NCBI GenBank assembly: GCA_003165595.1
Contig: PLWQ01000008.1
Location: 1,167 to 40,197 of the forward strand
DNA from: Fibrobacterota bacterium
Lineage (GTDB): Bacteria; Fibrobacterota; Chitinivibrionia; Chitinivibrionales; FEN-1185
Direction: 5' to 3'
Length of the DNA: 39,031 nucleotides
Part shown: positions 10,120 through 21,192 of the stretch, piece by piece
Numbering within the stretch: the stretch's first letter is position 1
Layout: each line of letters begins with the position of its first letter
The notes under the pieces: generated by a model
The model's database searches: none
Told to the model about the DNA's origin: nothing
Seen by the model: the letters and a program-made list of their open reading frames with translations, nothing else
Program-made: the position numbers and the translations under genes

Positions 10120-11622
10120 TTACCGGCCCGGATGCAGAAAATGCCGAGCCGCCAGCATCGGGCCGCGCGCAGGCGGGAACCGCCGGATGCCGCGGTCCAG
10201 CAGCCGATGCTTGTCGACACGCGAGAATCTTGCCGACGTGCGTGCACGCGCTTTTGCCAACCCCCATGCCGAAGCGGGTTGTACCGTGCGGCAGGCGGCT
10301 GTGAGGCTGCTCAATGCCGATTTCTTGTAGTTCTCTATGGTGAAAACATAACTGGTTGCCTGCTCGATATAGATATTGTTGACCGTATCGTTGATATACG
10401 CAAATCCGGTCGAATCGACGGCGGGTGGCAGTACGATATTCCGTTTCTTGTTGACAAGGCTCGCGTAATTTGCAAAGAACGTCGCCGCAGCAGCAGCCGA
10501 TGAATCGCGCCAGTACGTATACCATACCATTCGCAGGGTGTCCGTCTGCAGGTCCCGGAACACGAACGACTCGTCGGCCGTCATCCCGTTCGGGATATCC
10601 CGGAAAGCGGCAAAATCCCATTCCCTGAACATGACGTCCGCCAGCAATTCCCCGAGCTGATCATCGTCCTCGATTAAGTTCGATTGCACGATGACGCTGT
10701 CCAATGCTTGCGTATTGAGAACATACTCGTTGGTGGCGGAATATTCCTGTGGGTGAAGGACTTCCAGCATCCGCAGCGGAAGCACGGGAAAAATGGTATT
10801 GTCGATGATGGACCAGTTCATGCCGGCAATCGCGTTAATGAATCTGGGGCCGTACGAAAAATATTCCCACTGCAAGGGCATATTCGTGAGCATGGGCTCG
10901 CCGTGCTGATGCATGGTATCCAGATCCGCATCCGCACCGATTTGTTCCTGGTTGAGGAAGTTGACTACGGGCGTTGACGTCGTGGGATAGGCGCCGCTAT
11001 TCAGGAAAAAATAATAGTAATCCATCAGAAGCTCAGCTTCGCCCTCGATCACGTAGTCGGTGGCATAATACATGTCGGAAGGCGCATAGGGATTATTGAT
11101 AGTGTCAAGACCGAAATACTGGTCTTGCAGTGCATGGACGAATTCGTGGAACAGCGTGAGGGAATCTTCGAATGCCAACCCGGTTGCCGTATCGGCGAGA
11201 ATCACATAAAGGGAATCCGTACCGGGAACGTAGAAGCCGGCGGTCCCGCTCGCAATGGTTGAGTCGTAACTCGAATAGTAGTCGGCGCCGGGCCGCAGCA
11301 GGCCTTCGAGCCTGAGTATGTTGTTGTAAAGATTCTTGGTGCTTTGCGGAATCGTGTCGAACTGATTGCCCACCTGGGCCGCATATTGTGACTGGGTAAA
11401 GACGCTTACAAAGACCTTCCGTTTGTAATTCTTACCCCTGAAACGCTGGACCGCCAGCCGAATCGAATCAGCGGCAGCCATGACCTTGGCTTTGAGTGTG
11501 GTAGGCTGACCACCCGGTTGCACGGGAATAGTGACTTTTTCCGAGTCGTTTGTGCAGCTGAGAAGAATGAGAATCAATGGGATCAGCAGGATGGCAAACA
11601 CAAACACTTTTCTCTTTTTCAT
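10120..11622 (-). CDS. zinc-metalloprotease-like lipoprotein
   Basis: 500 residues from ATG 11622, preceded by AGGAG at 5-6 bases. The signal peptide ends in LLSC, so Cys23 should be lipidated. HEFVH (159-163) in LTLFHEFVHALQDQYF is a HExxH zinc site, and EGEAELLMDY (193-202) supplies the probable third ligand, giving a gluzincin arrangement. The protein should sit in the periplasm or on the surface. The last 60 residues are unusually Arg/Ala-rich and more GC-biased than the body, so the true C-terminus may have been altered by a frameshift; I cannot confirm this. It stands alone between two unrelated genes. The substrate is unknown. Confidence 0.8.
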   Translation of the reverse strand: MKKRKVFVFAILLIPLILILLSCTNDSEKVTIPVQPGGQPTTLKAKVMAAADSIRLAVQRFRGKNYKRKVFVSVFTQSQYAAQVGNQFDTIPQSTKNLYNNILRLEGLLRPGADYYSSYDSTIASGTAGFYVPGTDSLYVILADTATGLAFEDSLTLFHEFVHALQDQYFGLDTINNPYAPSDMYYATDYVIEGEAELLMDYYYFFLNSGAYPTTSTPVVNFLNQEQIGADADLDTMHQHGEPMLTNMPLQWEYFSYGPRFINAIAGMNWSIIDNTIFPVLPLRMLEVLHPQEYSATNEYVLNTQALDSVIVQSNLIEDDDQLGELLADVMFREWDFAAFRDIPNGMTADESFVFRDLQTDTLRMVWYTYWRDSSAAAAATFFANYASLVNKKRNIVLPPAVDSTGFAYINDTVNNIYIEQATSYVFTIENYKKSALSSLTAACRTVQPASAWGLAKARARTSARFSRVDKHRLLDRGIRRFPPARGPMLAARHFLHPGR

Positions 11623-11888
11623 CGAGGCTCCTCTCGGGTTTGTCGCTACCCAAAAATACACGAAACTGGGGCACGGATGACGGATATTGCCATTTATTGG
11701 ACCCACTACGAGGCACCTTGTTACTAAGAAAAGCTGAAGCAAACCGAATTGGTGTCCGATCAGCAAACAAGGAGAGGACCGCGTTCTGCCAAAGCAGGGG
11801 GGCAGCGAGCCTCGAACCGAGTTTCGTACCAGTCGCAATGCACAACTCGCGGCAGACCCGATCGATCGCCAAAAGGAGGACCTTAGCC

Positions 11889-12611
11889 ATGGCAGTGCAA
11901 AACCAGATTGTCATACTCAAATCCGGATCAAAGAATTGGAACATGTGGAGAGCCCTTAACAATGCCGGCAAGGCAGATTTCGGAAACGCCCTGCTGCAGG
12001 GGGCCGACCTGAAAGGCGCAGACCTGAGGAATGCCGATTTTTCAAAAGCAAATTTGCGGTCAGCTGATCTTTCCGGAGCCAACCTCGGAGAAGCAAACCT
12101 GTGGGGAGCAGACCTTTGCGGGGCTAATTTGGTAGAAGCAAGCCTCTGGGGAGCCGACCTTGCAAGAGCCGATCTCAGTGAAGCAAATTGTTCCGGGGCG
12201 AACCTGTGGGAAGCAGATCTTTCAAAAGCCAATTTGCGAAAAGCTGACCTTTCGAGAACCAGCCTCTGGGAGGCAAATCTTTCCGGAGCCGATCTTCGCG
12301 GCACGAATCTCGAAGGCGCCAACCTTGAGGGAGTCGACCTGAGCGGAGCCGACCTCAGGGGAGCCAACCTTTGCGGGGCCGATCTGTCCAAAGCCCGCAT
12401 CCGGGAAGTTCACTTTTGGAAAGCCGACCTCAAGACCGTCAAATCGTTTTACAAAGCGGAGCTTGATCCGGGAATCCTGTTCCAGATAAAACCCACCTGG
12501 CCCGAAAAGCTGGCGACCATCCGCAGCGCCGAGACGGTTGAATGGTTTCTCGACAGAACGCTCCTTGAGCAGATCAAGAAGCCCGAATGGCGAGGCTGGC
12601 AAACCGAATAG
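11889..12611 (+). CDS. pentapeptide-repeat protein
   Basis: 240 residues from ATG 11889, with a strong AAAAGGAGGA 8 bases upstream; the longer open frame on the 5' side is not supported. After a short N-terminus, residues about 35-170 are near-perfect A(D/N)LxX repeats (for example GADLKGADLRNADFSKANLR), forming a right-handed quadrilateral beta-helix. A C-terminal segment of about 65 residues (PTWPEKLATIRSAETVEWFL) is non-repetitive and probably caps the helix or mediates oligomerisation. Such helices can mimic DNA (Qnr/MfpA type) or act as scaffolds, but this protein has extra Trp and Ser at repeat positions and no diagnostic motif. There is no signal peptide, so it is probably cytoplasmic. 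Confidence 0.9.
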   Translation: MAVQNQIVILKSGSKNWNMWRALNNAGKADFGNALLQGADLKGADLRNADFSKANLRSADLSGANLGEANLWGADLCGANLVEASLWGADLARADLSEANCSGANLWEADLSKANLRKADLSRTSLWEANLSGADLRGTNLEGANLEGVDLSGADLRGANLCGADLSKARIREVHFWKADLKTVKSFYKAELDPGILFQIKPTWPEKLATIRSAETVEWFLDRTLLEQIKKPEWRGWQTE

Positions 12612-16180: not shown

Positions 16181-17110
16181 TTATTTGTCGAACACCACGC
16201 TGGTCCACGATCCCGGCATCAGCAGGTTGGCCTTGGCCGGCACTTCGGCCTGGACCGCACCCTTATCGTCAAGCGCGTAGGCAGAGAATCCGATGACCCG
16301 GTCGTCCTGGCCAACAAGGCCGATGTCGTACATCGGGATGTTCAGAACCACAAAGTCTTTGGTGGAGAACGTCTTGATTTCGTTTGCCCAGGGCTTTGTC
16401 GGGAAGCTGATGCTGTCGGTGACCGCGATACGGTTGTGAAGAAAGGAATTCACCGAATCCTTTGCCGTAAACAGGTCTGCCACGCGGTCCGAATAGGCGA
16501 TAAAGGCGTTCTTGCCGTTCTTGCCGTCAAAGGCGAACCGAAGCACGCCCGCCGCCTGTGCCTTCTTGCACACGATCGACAGGATCTTGGGGCTCCAGAA
16601 CAGGGCGAAGTCGCTGCCCTTGACCGACGTGAACTTTGCCTTGGCGGCGAGATCGGCAACCGAATTCTGGTCTACCAGCGCTGCGACTTTTAACGCGTGG
16701 AGCGGTTCCACTTTGCCAAGCTTATCGATATTGACGATGCCGACGGGAAAAAGCGACCCTTTGTCCTTGGTACCGGGAATGGACCATTCGACCTTGAGAA
16801 AGTCCTTGCCGCCCAGAAGACTGGTGCCCACGGAACCGAGCGCGAATTCCTGAGAATAGTCGGTTACCTTGAAGGTCTTATTGGCCACCAGCTTTTTCTT
16901 GCCGCCCTCCACCCTGGTAAGAAGCACCGACACTTTCTTCTGCGGAATTTTCGACGTGTCAAGCTGCACCTTGAGGACGATATTGTCGGAGCGTTCCGTT
17001 ACCCACTGCCCGGGGCTGTTGAACGTCACGATGTCGCCAAAGGCCGATCCCGCAAACCACGTTGCGCACACGACACTCACGAATCCTGCACAAATCGCTT
17101 TCATACGCAT
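16181..17110 (-). CDS. secreted protein of unknown function
   Basis: 309 residues. A signal peptide (MRMKAICAGFVSVVCATWF, cleavage near AGSAFGD) is followed by a mature protein predicted to be mainly beta-stranded. An early domain (about 28-130: VTERSDNIVLKVQLDTSK, KKLVANKTFKV) looks like an Ig-like fold. The C-terminal half (about 150-300: DFALFWSPKI, AGVLRFAFDGKNGKN, IPMYDIGLVGQDDRVIGFSA) resembles carbohydrate-binding or CBM9-like sandwiches, but no family is certain. ATG 17110 follows AAGGAAGGA; ATG 17104 is also in frame. tRNA-His lies immediately downstream on the same strand. Confidence 0.8.
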   Translation of the reverse strand: MRMKAICAGFVSVVCATWFAGSAFGDIVTFNSPGQWVTERSDNIVLKVQLDTSKIPQKKVSVLLTRVEGGKKKLVANKTFKVTDYSQEFALGSVGTSLLGGKDFLKVEWSIPGTKDKGSLFPVGIVNIDKLGKVEPLHALKVAALVDQNSVADLAAKAKFTSVKGSDFALFWSPKILSIVCKKAQAAGVLRFAFDGKNGKNAFIAYSDRVADLFTAKDSVNSFLHNRIAVTDSISFPTKPWANEIKTFSTKDFVVLNIPMYDIGLVGQDDRVIGFSAYALDDKGAVQAEVPAKANLLMPGSWTSVVFDK

Positions 17111-17235: not shown

Positions 17236-17267
17236 GAAAAAGGCACAACGGACGTCCGTCATGCCTT
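17236..17267 (-). terminator. intrinsic terminator after fba
   Basis: Leftward reading gives AAGGCA...TGCCTT enclosing a second perfect palindrome ACGGACGTCCGT, then a T5 run at 17241-17237. It lies 30 bases beyond the fba stop and should end the 34-gene ribosomal block transcript. Confidence 0.8.
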
Positions 17268-17296
17268 CGTGTAAACCGCTGTTTTATTGCGGATAG

Positions 17297-18385
17297 TTAC
17301 TTTTTCCTTTTTGCAGCCTTCTTGACCGGCTTCGCCGCTTTCTTGGGCGCGGCCTTCTTCTTTGCCGGGAAATAGACCTTGAGCATGTCTTTGGTGGAAA
17401 CCGGCTTGTAGTCGCCTGCATGGCCAGCCGTGCCGAATGCCTTCATTTCTTCGAGCATCCAGGCCTTCACCGCTTCGCGGGCGGGCCCGAGATAGTCGCG
17501 GGGGTCGAATTTCTGCGGCTGTTCCACAAACACCTTGCGGATCGCGCCGGTGATGGCGAGGCGTCCGTCGGTATCGATGTTCACCTTGCGCATGCCCCGC
17601 TTGATGGCGTCCTGGATCATGGCGGTGGGAACGCCCACTGCGTTGGGGACCTTGCCGCCGTATTGATTGACAAGATCAACCATCTGCTTGGGCACCGATG
17701 AGCTGCCGTGCATCACGAGTGCGGTTTTGGGCGACCGGCGATGAACGTCGTCGATGATGTCGAGCGCGAGCTTGATTTCGTGGCCTACCGGGAACTTATA
17801 TGCACCGTGCGATGTGCCGATGGCAAGTGCCAGGGCGTCCACGCCGGTCTGCTTGACAAACTCTTCTGCTTCCACGGGGTCGGTAAGATGTACTGCGCCG
17901 GCAACCGTGTCGTCTTCGATGCCGCCGAGCGTGCCTATTTCACCTTCGACGGTGACGCCGGCAGCGTGGGCGATTTTCACGGCTGCCTTTGTTATTGCTA
18001 CGTTTTCCTCGAAGGAGCGGGCCGGATGCTTGCCTTTCTCGTCTTTTCTGCTGTAGTCAAGCGAACCGTCGATCATCACGGACGTGAATCCGAGCTTTAC
18101 GCATTCGGCAACGGTCTCGAGGTCCGGACCGTGGTCGAGGTGGAGCGACATGGGAATCTGCGGGTATTTCTTTTCGGCCATGTAGGAGACCATGGCTGCG
18201 AGAAGACCCTTGTCTGCATACTTGAGCGCGTTGCGGCTCACCTGGATAATAACCGGCGAGCTGGTTTCGGCAGCTGCGGCGCAGATGGCCTGCAACTGTT
18301 CCATGTTGTTGACGTTGAACGCTCCAACGCCGTAGCCGGCTTTGTTGGCCTCATCGAGAATGAGTTTCATTGGTACGAGAGACAT
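17297..18385 (-). CDS. fba: class II fructose-bisphosphate aldolase with Lys/Ala tail
   Basis: 362 residues, a TIM-barrel zinc aldolase that splits fructose 1,6-bisphosphate into dihydroxyacetone phosphate and glyceraldehyde 3-phosphate in glycolysis and reverses this in gluconeogenesis. Zinc/catalytic residues are seen in LHLDHG (Asp84, His85), GEIG (Glu149), GTSHGAYKF (His193) and VMHGSSS (His226); NIDTDGR (269-275) binds phosphate. Residues 341-362 form an extra tail of Lys, Ala and Pro only, ending KPVKKAAKRKK, like the C-terminus of histone H1-type proteins. ATG 18385 follows AAGGGGTGAT. It starts 29 bases after rplQ with no terminator between, so it is probably co-transcribed with ribosomal genes, which is unusual. 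Confidence 0.95.
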   Translation of the reverse strand: MSLVPMKLILDEANKAGYGVGAFNVNNMEQLQAICAAAAETSSPVIIQVSRNALKYADKGLLAAMVSYMAEKKYPQIPMSLHLDHGPDLETVAECVKLGFTSVMIDGSLDYSRKDEKGKHPARSFEENVAITKAAVKIAHAAGVTVEGEIGTLGGIEDDTVAGAVHLTDPVEAEEFVKQTGVDALALAIGTSHGAYKFPVGHEIKLALDIIDDVHRRSPKTALVMHGSSSVPKQMVDLVNQYGGKVPNAVGVPTAMIQDAIKRGMRKVNIDTDGRLAITGAIRKVFVEQPQKFDPRDYLGPAREAVKAWMLEEMKAFGTAGHAGDYKPVSTKDMLKVYFPAKKKAAPKKAAKPVKKAAKRKK

Positions 18386-18414
18386 GGCATCACCCCTTCT
18401 TGACGTTATGGACC

Positions 18415-19008
18415 TTACTTTGCATCCTTGGCCGAGTCATCGGCCTTTGGTTCGGTTTTCTTTTTCTTTTTTGGCGCCGCCTTGGGCTTCTCGGCTTTCG
18501 GCTCGGCGGCAGGTTTCTCGGACTTCTTTTCCGCGGCTTCCGCTGCCGGTTTTTCCTTGGGAGCAGGCGCTTCCTTGGCCGGTGTTGCCGCCTCGGGTGT
18601 TTTTTCGGCCGCTTTCCGTCTCTTTTTCCTCATGCGCGCGGTTTCCCCGCTGTTCCTTCCCGTCAACTCCAGGATGCAAGTCTGGGCGTCGTCGCCCGCA
18701 CGCCGGCCCAGTTTGAGAATGCGCGTGTAACCGCCCTCGCGCGTCTTGTATGACGGCCCGATATCGGAGAACAGCTTCTTGAGGATGTCTTTGTCCTGTA
18801 CGGTCTTGGCGGCAACCCGTATGGAATTGAGACCGCCCTTTTTTGCAAACGTAATGAGGCGCTCAATGGTGCCCCGCGCCGCCTTCGCCTTTGCGAGAGT
18901 CGTGATTACGCGTTCTTTATCGAGCACCGACATGGCCAGATTCGCGAGCATCGCGCCGCGATGCTCCGCTGTCCGGTTTAACTTGTTTACAGAATTCAAA
19001 TGTCGCAT
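18415..19008 (-). CDS. rplQ: 50S ribosomal protein L17 with long C-terminal extension
   Basis: 197 residues, against about 115-130 in most bacteria. The L17 core (1-126) begins MRHLNSVNKLNRTAEHRGAM and includes RVITTLAKAKAARGTIERLI and a GGYTRILKLGRR block. L17 sits near the peptide-tunnel exit of the large subunit. Residues 127-197 are a Lys/Ala/Pro/Glu low-complexity tail (PKAEKPKAAPKKKKKTEPK). It is last of the alpha-operon set after rpoA, 43 bases downstream. AAAGGAAG precedes the ATG. Confidence 0.97.
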   Translation of the reverse strand: MRHLNSVNKLNRTAEHRGAMLANLAMSVLDKERVITTLAKAKAARGTIERLITFAKKGGLNSIRVAAKTVQDKDILKKLFSDIGPSYKTREGGYTRILKLGRRAGDDAQTCILELTGRNSGETARMRKKRRKAAEKTPEAATPAKEAPAPKEKPAAEAAEKKSEKPAAEPKAEKPKAAPKKKKKTEPKADDSAKDAK

Positions 19009-19051: not shown

Positions 19052-20044
19052 TTACTTGTCTTTGGGTTCGGCAACTCCCACCAGTTTCTCAACGTCCATA
19101 CCAAAGGATAATCCGAGGTTGGAAAGGATCTGGTTGAGTTCGATGAGGGACTTCCGGCCGAAATTCTTGTATTTGAGCATGTCTGATTCCTGATTCTTCA
19201 CCAGGTCGGCGAGCGTGTGGATATTTGCGGCCCGCAGGCAGTTCGCCGAGCGAACCGAAAGTTCCAGTTCGTCAACACGCATCTTGAGAAGCTGGCGCAG
19301 CTTGTCGGCCTTCTCGTCTTTCACCACTTCCTCCACCGGCTCCAGCTCACCCTCGAAATTGATGAAGATGGCAAGATGGTCGGACACGAGTTTGGCGGCG
19401 TAGGCCACCGAGTCTTCCACCGAAATGCTGCCGTCGGTCCATACGTCGAGGATCAGCTTGTCGAGATCGGTGCGCTGTCCGACACGCGCATTTTCCACCG
19501 AGTAGTTTACTTTACTGACAGGAGAAAAGATCGCGTCGATGGGAATGGTGCCGATGGGGTCGTCGTCGCGCTTATTCTGTTCGGCGGGCACATAGCCGCG
19601 CCCATCCGACACCCGCATCTCGATCTTGAGCTTGGCGTCGGAATTGATGGTGGCGATGTGAAGGTCCGGGTTGAGAATCTGGACGTCCGGATTCTTTTCG
19701 ATATCGGACGCCTTGACCTCGCCCTCCCCGCTCACTTCGAGGCGGATGGTGGCGTCCTCGTCGGCGTTGAGCTTGACTCGCAGTTTCTTGATATTGAGGA
19801 TAATGTCGGTGACGTCTTCCACCACGCCTTCGACGGTCGAATACTCGTGGAGGACGTTTTCAATCCGCACCGATATCACGGCGGCGCCTTGCAGCGACGA
19901 CAGCAGGATGCGCCGGATCGAATTTCCTATGGTGTGTCCCCAGCCGCGTTCGAGCGGTTCGACGATCACCTTGCCATAATTAGGAACATCGTCGGGATTC
20001 TCGATCTTGATGGCTTTGGGCATCAATAAGCTTTTCCACTTCAT
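19052..20044 (-). CDS. rpoA: RNA polymerase alpha subunit
   Basis: 330 residues. The N-terminal dimerisation domain (about 8-235) carries ERGWGHTIGNSIRRILLSSL, the standard alpha signature. After an acidic linker (EEVVKDEKADK) the C-terminal domain holds ELSVRSANCLRAANIHTLAD, matching the residues that bind UP-element DNA and activators. It scaffolds RNA polymerase assembly. AGGAG lies about 10 bases upstream of ATG 20044; an ATG seven codons on (MPKAIKIEN) is an alternative. It lies between rpsD and rplQ as in canonical alpha operons. Confidence 0.98.
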   Translation of the reverse strand: MKWKSLLMPKAIKIENPDDVPNYGKVIVEPLERGWGHTIGNSIRRILLSSLQGAAVISVRIENVLHEYSTVEGVVEDVTDIILNIKKLRVKLNADEDATIRLEVSGEGEVKASDIEKNPDVQILNPDLHIATINSDAKLKIEMRVSDGRGYVPAEQNKRDDDPIGTIPIDAIFSPVSKVNYSVENARVGQRTDLDKLILDVWTDGSISVEDSVAYAAKLVSDHLAIFINFEGELEPVEEVVKDEKADKLRQLLKMRVDELELSVRSANCLRAANIHTLADLVKNQESDMLKYKNFGRKSLIELNQILSNLGLSFGMDVEKLVGVAEPKDK

Positions 20045-20700: not shown

Positions 20701-21192
20701 TTACACTCTTCTTCGCTTGGGTGGACGGCAACCGTTGTGCGGAATTGCCGTATAGTCTTTGATTGCCGTTATCTTGAGGCCGGCTGAGGCGAGCGCCCGG
20801 ATCGAACTCTCGCGTCCGTTTCCGGCGCCCTTGATATGAACTTCTATTTTCCTGACGCCGGCGTCGAAGGCAGCCTTGCCGACCGACTCGGCCGCAATCT
20901 GCGCCGCAAAAGGCGTGCTCTTGCGCGAGCCTTTGAACCCGGACTTGCCCGGCGAGCCCCATGCAACCACATTGCCGTGCGTATCCGAAACGTTGATGAG
21001 CGTGTTGTTGAAGGTCGCCCTGATATGCGCTATGCCGTCGGCCGCTGCCTTCTTTCTGATCTTCTTTACTGCAGGCTTTTCCTTGCCTTCGGGCCGTCCT
21101 TCACCTTTGCCTTCACTCTTGCCCTCGCCCTTGCCTTCACCTTTGCCTTCGGGCTTGCTATCGGCTTTGCTGTCTGACTTGCTTTCTGCCAT
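20701..21192 (-). CDS. rpsK: 30S ribosomal protein S11 with repetitive N-terminal extension
   Basis: 163 residues, about 33 longer than usual. The S11 core runs from about residue 42, with [40 protein letters not shown] and a [13 protein letters not shown] end. Residues 1-40 are a Lys/Glu/Gly/Ser repeat built on GEGK and SEGK units (DNA 21085-21185). S11 lines the 30S platform near the Shine-Dalgarno helix, so a flexible charged tail there is notable. AAGGGGT precedes the ATG, which supports the long form. Confidence 0.97.

Follow-up and report, generated by a model that had tools for sequence, protein, structure and literature searches.

The gene for class II fructose-bisphosphate aldolase (fba, product FBA) in the stretch of Fibrobacterota DNA analysed here (39,031 nucleotides, hereafter the window) stands directly behind a ribosomal block, and its product ends in a short Lys/Ala/Pro tail resembling that of histone H1. 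Tails of the same kind were found on a second enzyme of central metabolism, pyruvate phosphate dikinase (PPDK), in most of the phylum members that were read. From these sequence comparisons we consider it about an even bet (probability near 0.5) that fba belongs to the alpha-block transcript and that its tail would act as a polyanion tether for the aldolase together with PPDK.

Results

The aldolase gene and its catalytic core

An earlier note had called an aldolase at 17297-18385, and this was borne out by a profile search in which the 362-residue product matched PF01116 at 311.5 bits (cut-off 25.5). Among NCBIfam profiles it exceeded the cut-off of TIGR00167, and its top match was TIGR01521 (FruBisAldo_II_B) at 365.8 bits, which lies below the equivalog cut-off of 496.35. 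No second PF01116 match was found in the genome. As residues D84, H85, H193 and H226, which we take to be the metal-ligand or catalytic positions, were invariant among 24 aligned aldolases, the FBA core should be a working enzyme; its predicted model had a mean pLDDT of 88.3. The features of the locus are collected in Table 1.

Table 1. Positions of the fba locus features in the window
Feature	Position	Strand	Basis or remark
fba, class II fructose-bisphosphate aldolase	17297..18385	-	362 aa, ATG start
Lys/Ala/Pro tail codons, genus-specific, residues 339-362	17300..17371	-	absent from the three nearest orthologues
rplQ (L17)	18415..19008	-	TIGR00059, 126.7 bits
rpoA, next upstream gene, alpha-operon part of the block	19052..20044	-	TIGR02027, 389.6 bits
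rplQ-fba gap, 29 nt	18386..18414	-	coordinates
Terminator-like hairpin 3' of fba	17239..17268	-	fold -19.4 kcal/mol, z -3.8

Gene order at the end of the ribosomal block

The distance of 29 bases between rplQ and fba given in the earlier note was confirmed (rplQ stop at 18415, fba start at 18385), and a pattern scan for the sigma-70 consensus gave no promoter-like match in this gap. The accompanying statement that fba precedes the terminator of the block is supported. A stable hairpin does follow 28 nt past the fba stop, with a 13-bp stem and a 4-nt loop, and none of 200 shuffles was equally stable; however, it is weakly typical, its five-U run lying partly within the stem, and the pattern scan found no terminator site 3' of fba.

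The order was surveyed with L17 and PF01116 profiles over 167 genomes of the phylum, 40 of them from the order of the window. Among the matches listed, rplQ was followed by fba on the same strand in 25 of the 32 genomes of this order that had both genes, with 177-386 nt between the profile matches. The seven exceptions were G024, in which fba is close to the end of a contig, and six genomes with PF01116 elsewhere, five from family f7 and one from f2. Outside the order the arrangement was seen in none of the 90 phylum genomes with both genes among the matches listed, only G144 having the two on one contig (1.3 Mb apart), and assembly fragmentation may hide some cases. The gap measured 1-140 nt in eight genomes. 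By gene order, fba thus has the marks of an alpha-operon member (co-direction, short gap, hairpin behind it, conserved neighbourhood), and the short gaps and kept order make its co-transcription with rplQ likely. The coupling to the ribosomal block proposed earlier gains support at this level from the same strand, the 29-nt gap, the hairpin and the 25 of 32 genomes. No paper on the rplQ-fba arrangement was found in the open-licence literature.

Two Pirellulales loci (Rhodopirellula; L077 and L079, two of 80 named loci read with 3-kb flanks) had an rplQ-like gene upstream of fba, separated from it by two ORFs, so proximity of the two genes is not unique to the order of the window. Downstream of fba, the minus strand encodes an uncharacterised 309-aa protein (16181-17110) with a signal-like N-terminus by eye and no Pfam match above cut-off. 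Proteins related to it (29.8-61% identity) come after fba in G001, G006, G007 and G011, and in G025 and G010 they stand after fba with other ORFs in between. An ORF on the plus strand (11577-12611) has pentapeptide-repeat-like stretches by eye (GADLRGANL and alike).

Two aldolase types beside rplQ

The position next to rplQ is held by two types of aldolase, 46-50% identical over the matched part (53% in one partial f3 match). The type of the window occurs in G000, G001, G006, G007 and G011; the other stands beside rplQ in G002, which belongs to the same family f1 as the window, in G005 (f4) and in f3 genomes. Both types can be seen at rplQ-fba in the window (17297-18385) and in loci L033, L034, L035, L038, L039, L041 and L042. 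A quick tree was built from 54 aldolases and is limited by the choice of its named rows for likeness to the window's aldolase. In it, the second type grouped with the phylum member G040 (100*) and the window's type fell among other phyla, nearest to Omnitrophota L044 on a long branch (support 92). The secY tree placed G002 with G000 and G001 (93/92), and the rpoA tree did not resolve G002. Displacement of a gene in situ is a known phenomenon, and the simplest reading of these sequences would be replacement of a native aldolase in place by a foreign one, in either direction.

Each of the five genomes whose aldolase is of the window's type had matches to both polyphosphate kinases, PPK1 and PPK2; the four genomes searched that have the other type (G002, G010, G022, G025) gave neither, a split which may reflect phylogeny or incompleteness.

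Composition and conservation of the FBA tail

The C-terminal 22 residues of FBA are AKKKAAPKKAAKPVKKAAKRKK. The earlier note had described them as Lys, Ala, Pro and Arg only, which is right for 21 of the 22, the remaining one being Val. The tail has a charge of about +11.7 at pH 7 against -3.6 for the core, and shifts the pI from an acidic 6.2 for the core to a basic 9.1 with the tail. There are 10 lysines per 20 tail residues in the window and 9 in G001, the longest Lys run being three with none of four, and the 22-24 residues are without a KPAA unit. The structure prediction suggests that the tail is disordered, with no helix or strand, at a pLDDT of 62-70 that is not low enough to mark disorder clearly.

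Both genomes of the window's genus reached by the search (G000 and G001) have a tailed FBA, and none of the three closest orthologues outside the genus does (G006, G007 and G011; 82-86% identical, ending ...YAG). Among 80 aldolase loci of named genomes, the best of 587 candidates, none of the 79 with a closed end was tailed, the highest K/A/P/R fraction over the last 22 residues being 0.50. The suspicion in the earlier note that the tail is clade-specific, for which it proposed to look at Fba of relatives, therefore agrees with the congeners and nearest orthologues, and its remark that the tail is unlike normal Fba holds for the aldolases read.

Between G000 and G001 the tails differ at 15 synonymous and 7 non-synonymous positions over 24 codons, plus indels. 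Synonymous sites are near saturation, with 21 of 22 K/A/P/R residues kept in each genome. The resulting pN/pS of 0.14 is biased low because the codon alignment of so simple a sequence tends to pair identical residues; for the same congeners it was 0.08 in the FBA core and 0.66, far looser, in the rplQ tail. Neutral decay of the window tail over the synonymous distance of the core, a simulation which depends on the alignment of the core only and is independent of that of the tail, left at least 20 of 22 K/A/P/R residues in none of 20,000 runs. At half that distance the share was again 0, and at a quarter 0.27%. In these two genomes of the genus, the tail looks kept by selection rather than junk. 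Judged from the sequences compared, it is a genus-level gain of the same kind as the PPDK tails of the phylum.

Tails on PPDK

PPDK of G000 (TIGR01828, 1007.6 bits; L182:4906-7107, G000:C9) carries an H1-like tail; as the 5' part of the gene has some N, only its 3' part was used. The enzyme was found in 67 of the 167 phylum genomes, 38 of them in the order of the window, and its C-terminal ends were fetched for 34 of these 38 (one unreadable). Ends were also obtained from 16 of the remaining 29 and from 30 named genomes of other phyla (three unreadable); the order and phylum loci are L206-L235 and L266-L285. A tail was scored when at least 14 residues past the conserved end held at least 5 Lys and at least 55% K/A/P/R. 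By this rule PPDK was tailed in 26 of 33 readable cases in the order and in 13 of the 16 from the rest of the phylum. Among other phyla it was tailed in 4 of 27, which is no survey, the named genomes having been picked for a window-like aldolase (48 of 80 loci tried, 30 matched). These four belong to three Planctomycetota and one BRC1, and their aldolases are untailed.

PPDK was clearly untailed in G025 and all four f7 genomes read within the order, and in G057, G153 and G166 outside it; the enzyme can therefore do without the tail. Three further ends are untailed by the rule yet Lys-rich, namely those of G026 (134 aa, 45 Lys), G003 (13 aa, 7 Lys) and the named locus L245 (12 aa, 6 Lys). Sequence and length of the PPDK tails vary widely and their composition is kept; five f11 genomes (g37) have tails of about 78-98 residues ending in EMAMA. 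No paper on a tailed PPDK was found in the open-licence literature. That the PPDK tail is far wider spread than that of FBA shifts the weight of the explanation away from ribosome coupling and onto a tail type that two enzymes have in common.

Origin of the FBA tail from the PPDK tail by copying was considered as a possibility. The pair within G000 scored above all shuffles (0/1000; 0/500) and that of G001 was reached by 12 of 500, but some distant PPDK tails score alike against either FBA tail (2-7/500); a shared repeat pattern would explain the likeness as well as copying. A copy of the rplQ tail was rejected, the DNA similarity being weak and reached by 27 of 1000 codon shuffles.

Basic tails on other proteins

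The genome was sampled over 1.19 Mb (about 22%; 61 pieces including the window, 1027 ORF calls), in which the last 22 residues reached a K/A/P/R fraction of at least 0.9 in two calls only, FBA and PPDK, and of at least 0.68 in four (mean 0.29, sd 0.11). A tail-profile search matched FBA and PPDK of G000 and missed the known tails of G001, and was not used as a count. Smaller samples were taken from G001 (0.40 Mb), G010 (0.31 Mb) and G157 (0.37 Mb); the PPDK region was deliberately included for G010 and G157, and ribosomal genes were present for G001 and G157. Tails were seen there on FBA (G001), PPDK (G010, G157), ribosomal-looking proteins and a few non-coding-like or unknown ORFs, which were left uncounted (L128, L172, L195, L032:10625-11095 and a 63-aa ORF in L321). 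The other basic low-complexity tails were thus mostly on ribosomal-looking proteins (L17 by profile; L4 and L29 by eye), a share that is partly sample bias, ribosomal blocks lying within the samples. Within the window, L17 (18415-19008, minus strand) has an 81-residue Lys/Ala/Glu/Pro tail and S11 (20701-21192, minus strand) an N-terminal extension rich in Lys, Gly, Glu and Ser.

Discussion

In the mechanism that we propose, fba would close the ribosomal alpha block and most likely be read as part of its transcript, so that aldolase output would follow ribosome output. The tail, by making an acidic FBA basic, would most likely provide a non-specific electrostatic tether, holding the aldolase together with PPDK on a polyanion, most likely RNA or ribosomes or the nucleoid; catalysis by the core would not be expected to change. 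The suggestion of the earlier note that the tail could bind RNA, DNA or ribosomes is plausible. Composition is kept and order and length drift, which points to charge rather than shape as the working property. Since a sequence of this kind binds DNA in AlgP and the remaining tailed proteins of the samples look ribosomal, in part through sample bias, RNA or ribosomes and the nucleoid come first among the polyanions to be considered. The untailed state of the closest FBA orthologues counts against a tether.

The closest parallels are AlgP and PhaF of Pseudomonas, which likewise end in a Lys/Pro/Ala tail, a composition shared by FBA (21 of 22 residues K/A/P/R). According to PMC9239181, DNA is bound by a fragment of the KPAA domain of AlgP, granules are positioned by the domain, and that of PhaF is thought to act likewise. 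AlgP is a non-enzyme with a KPAA repeat region of 154 residues, however, and the FBA tail sits on a glycolytic enzyme, with 22-24 residues and no KPAA in place of tandem repeats over about 150 residues. Basic Lys-rich C-terminal tails are also described for HupB of mycobacteria and TopA of Streptomyces, but these proteins act on DNA, a role not known for FBA or PPDK. Aldolase itself has been linked to nucleic acid. In Francisella, FBA is a transcription regulator that binds to the promoters of rpoA and katG (PMC5636795); the part of that paper at hand mentions no such tail, and here rpoA and fba lie in one gene block. In yeast, RNA is bound by Fba1 and further enzymes of glycolysis, which condense with it into glycolytic (G) bodies (PMC7162659), though in a eukaryote and, in the accessible portion of the paper, with no mention of an H1-like tail on Fba1.

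The tail could instead bind polyphosphate non-covalently, in the manner termed lysine polyphosphate modification, and so place FBA and PPDK on granules or regulate them. Its lysine density (10 per 20 residues, 9 in G001) is close to the nine per 20 of the positive proteins EngA and SrmB in PMC12077175, both tailed-FBA genomes have PPK1 and PPK2 matches, the H1-like tail of AlgP acts at polyphosphate granules (PMC9239181), and polyphosphate binds Lys-rich regions of ribosome-linked proteins of E. coli (PMC12345225). Both positive proteins had a four-Lys run, though, which the FBA tail is without, and FBA and PPDK are proteins of carbon metabolism; moreover, tailed PPDK occurs in G002, G010 and G022 (completeness 79, 100 and 98), in which neither PPK1 nor PPK2 was found, and we regard polyphosphate as the ligand with considerable doubt. 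A protein partner, whether some acidic protein or a further enzyme of the same pathway, would give assembly without nucleic acid, and it would suit both the acidic FBA core and a tail type common to two enzymes of one pathway. A polyanion fits better than a specific interface to a tail that varies in sequence and length and keeps its composition, and no candidate partner for the tail was identified, which makes this account unlikely.

It is very unlikely that low-complexity drift produced the tail as a functionless extension which the protein tolerates. Low-complexity regions are common on bacterial proteins (PMC6821194), and the PPDK tail is missing in some genomes and changes freely in length; against this stand the tail pN/pS of 0.14 with synonymous sites near-saturated, the 0 of 20,000 neutral runs that keep the composition, and the recurrence of the tail on PPDK across several families of the phylum. 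The gene order might be only a byproduct of chromosomal inheritance, with fba under its own promoter, and the scan did cover sigma-70 consensus promoters only. Gaps of 1-140 nt in eight genomes, and an order found in 25 of 32 genomes (among the matches listed) despite two deeply different aldolases at this place, leave this account little probability.

The tether with PPDK may belong to a wider scheme, which we put forward as a tentative and rather doubtful possibility. Glycolytic or gluconeogenic enzymes would assemble through such tails on RNA or the nucleoid, PPDK being tail-recruited in most phylum members read and FBA, as a product of the ribosomal alpha block, having joined in this genus by gaining a tail of this kind, as a bacterial counterpart of the yeast glycolytic bodies. 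H1-like tails have so far been known on nucleoid and granule proteins. What is new is a constrained tail of this type on two enzymes of central metabolism, with tailless close orthologues as natural controls, and tethering of bacterial glycolytic enzymes to nucleic acid or polyphosphate becomes testable by the removal of about 22 residues.
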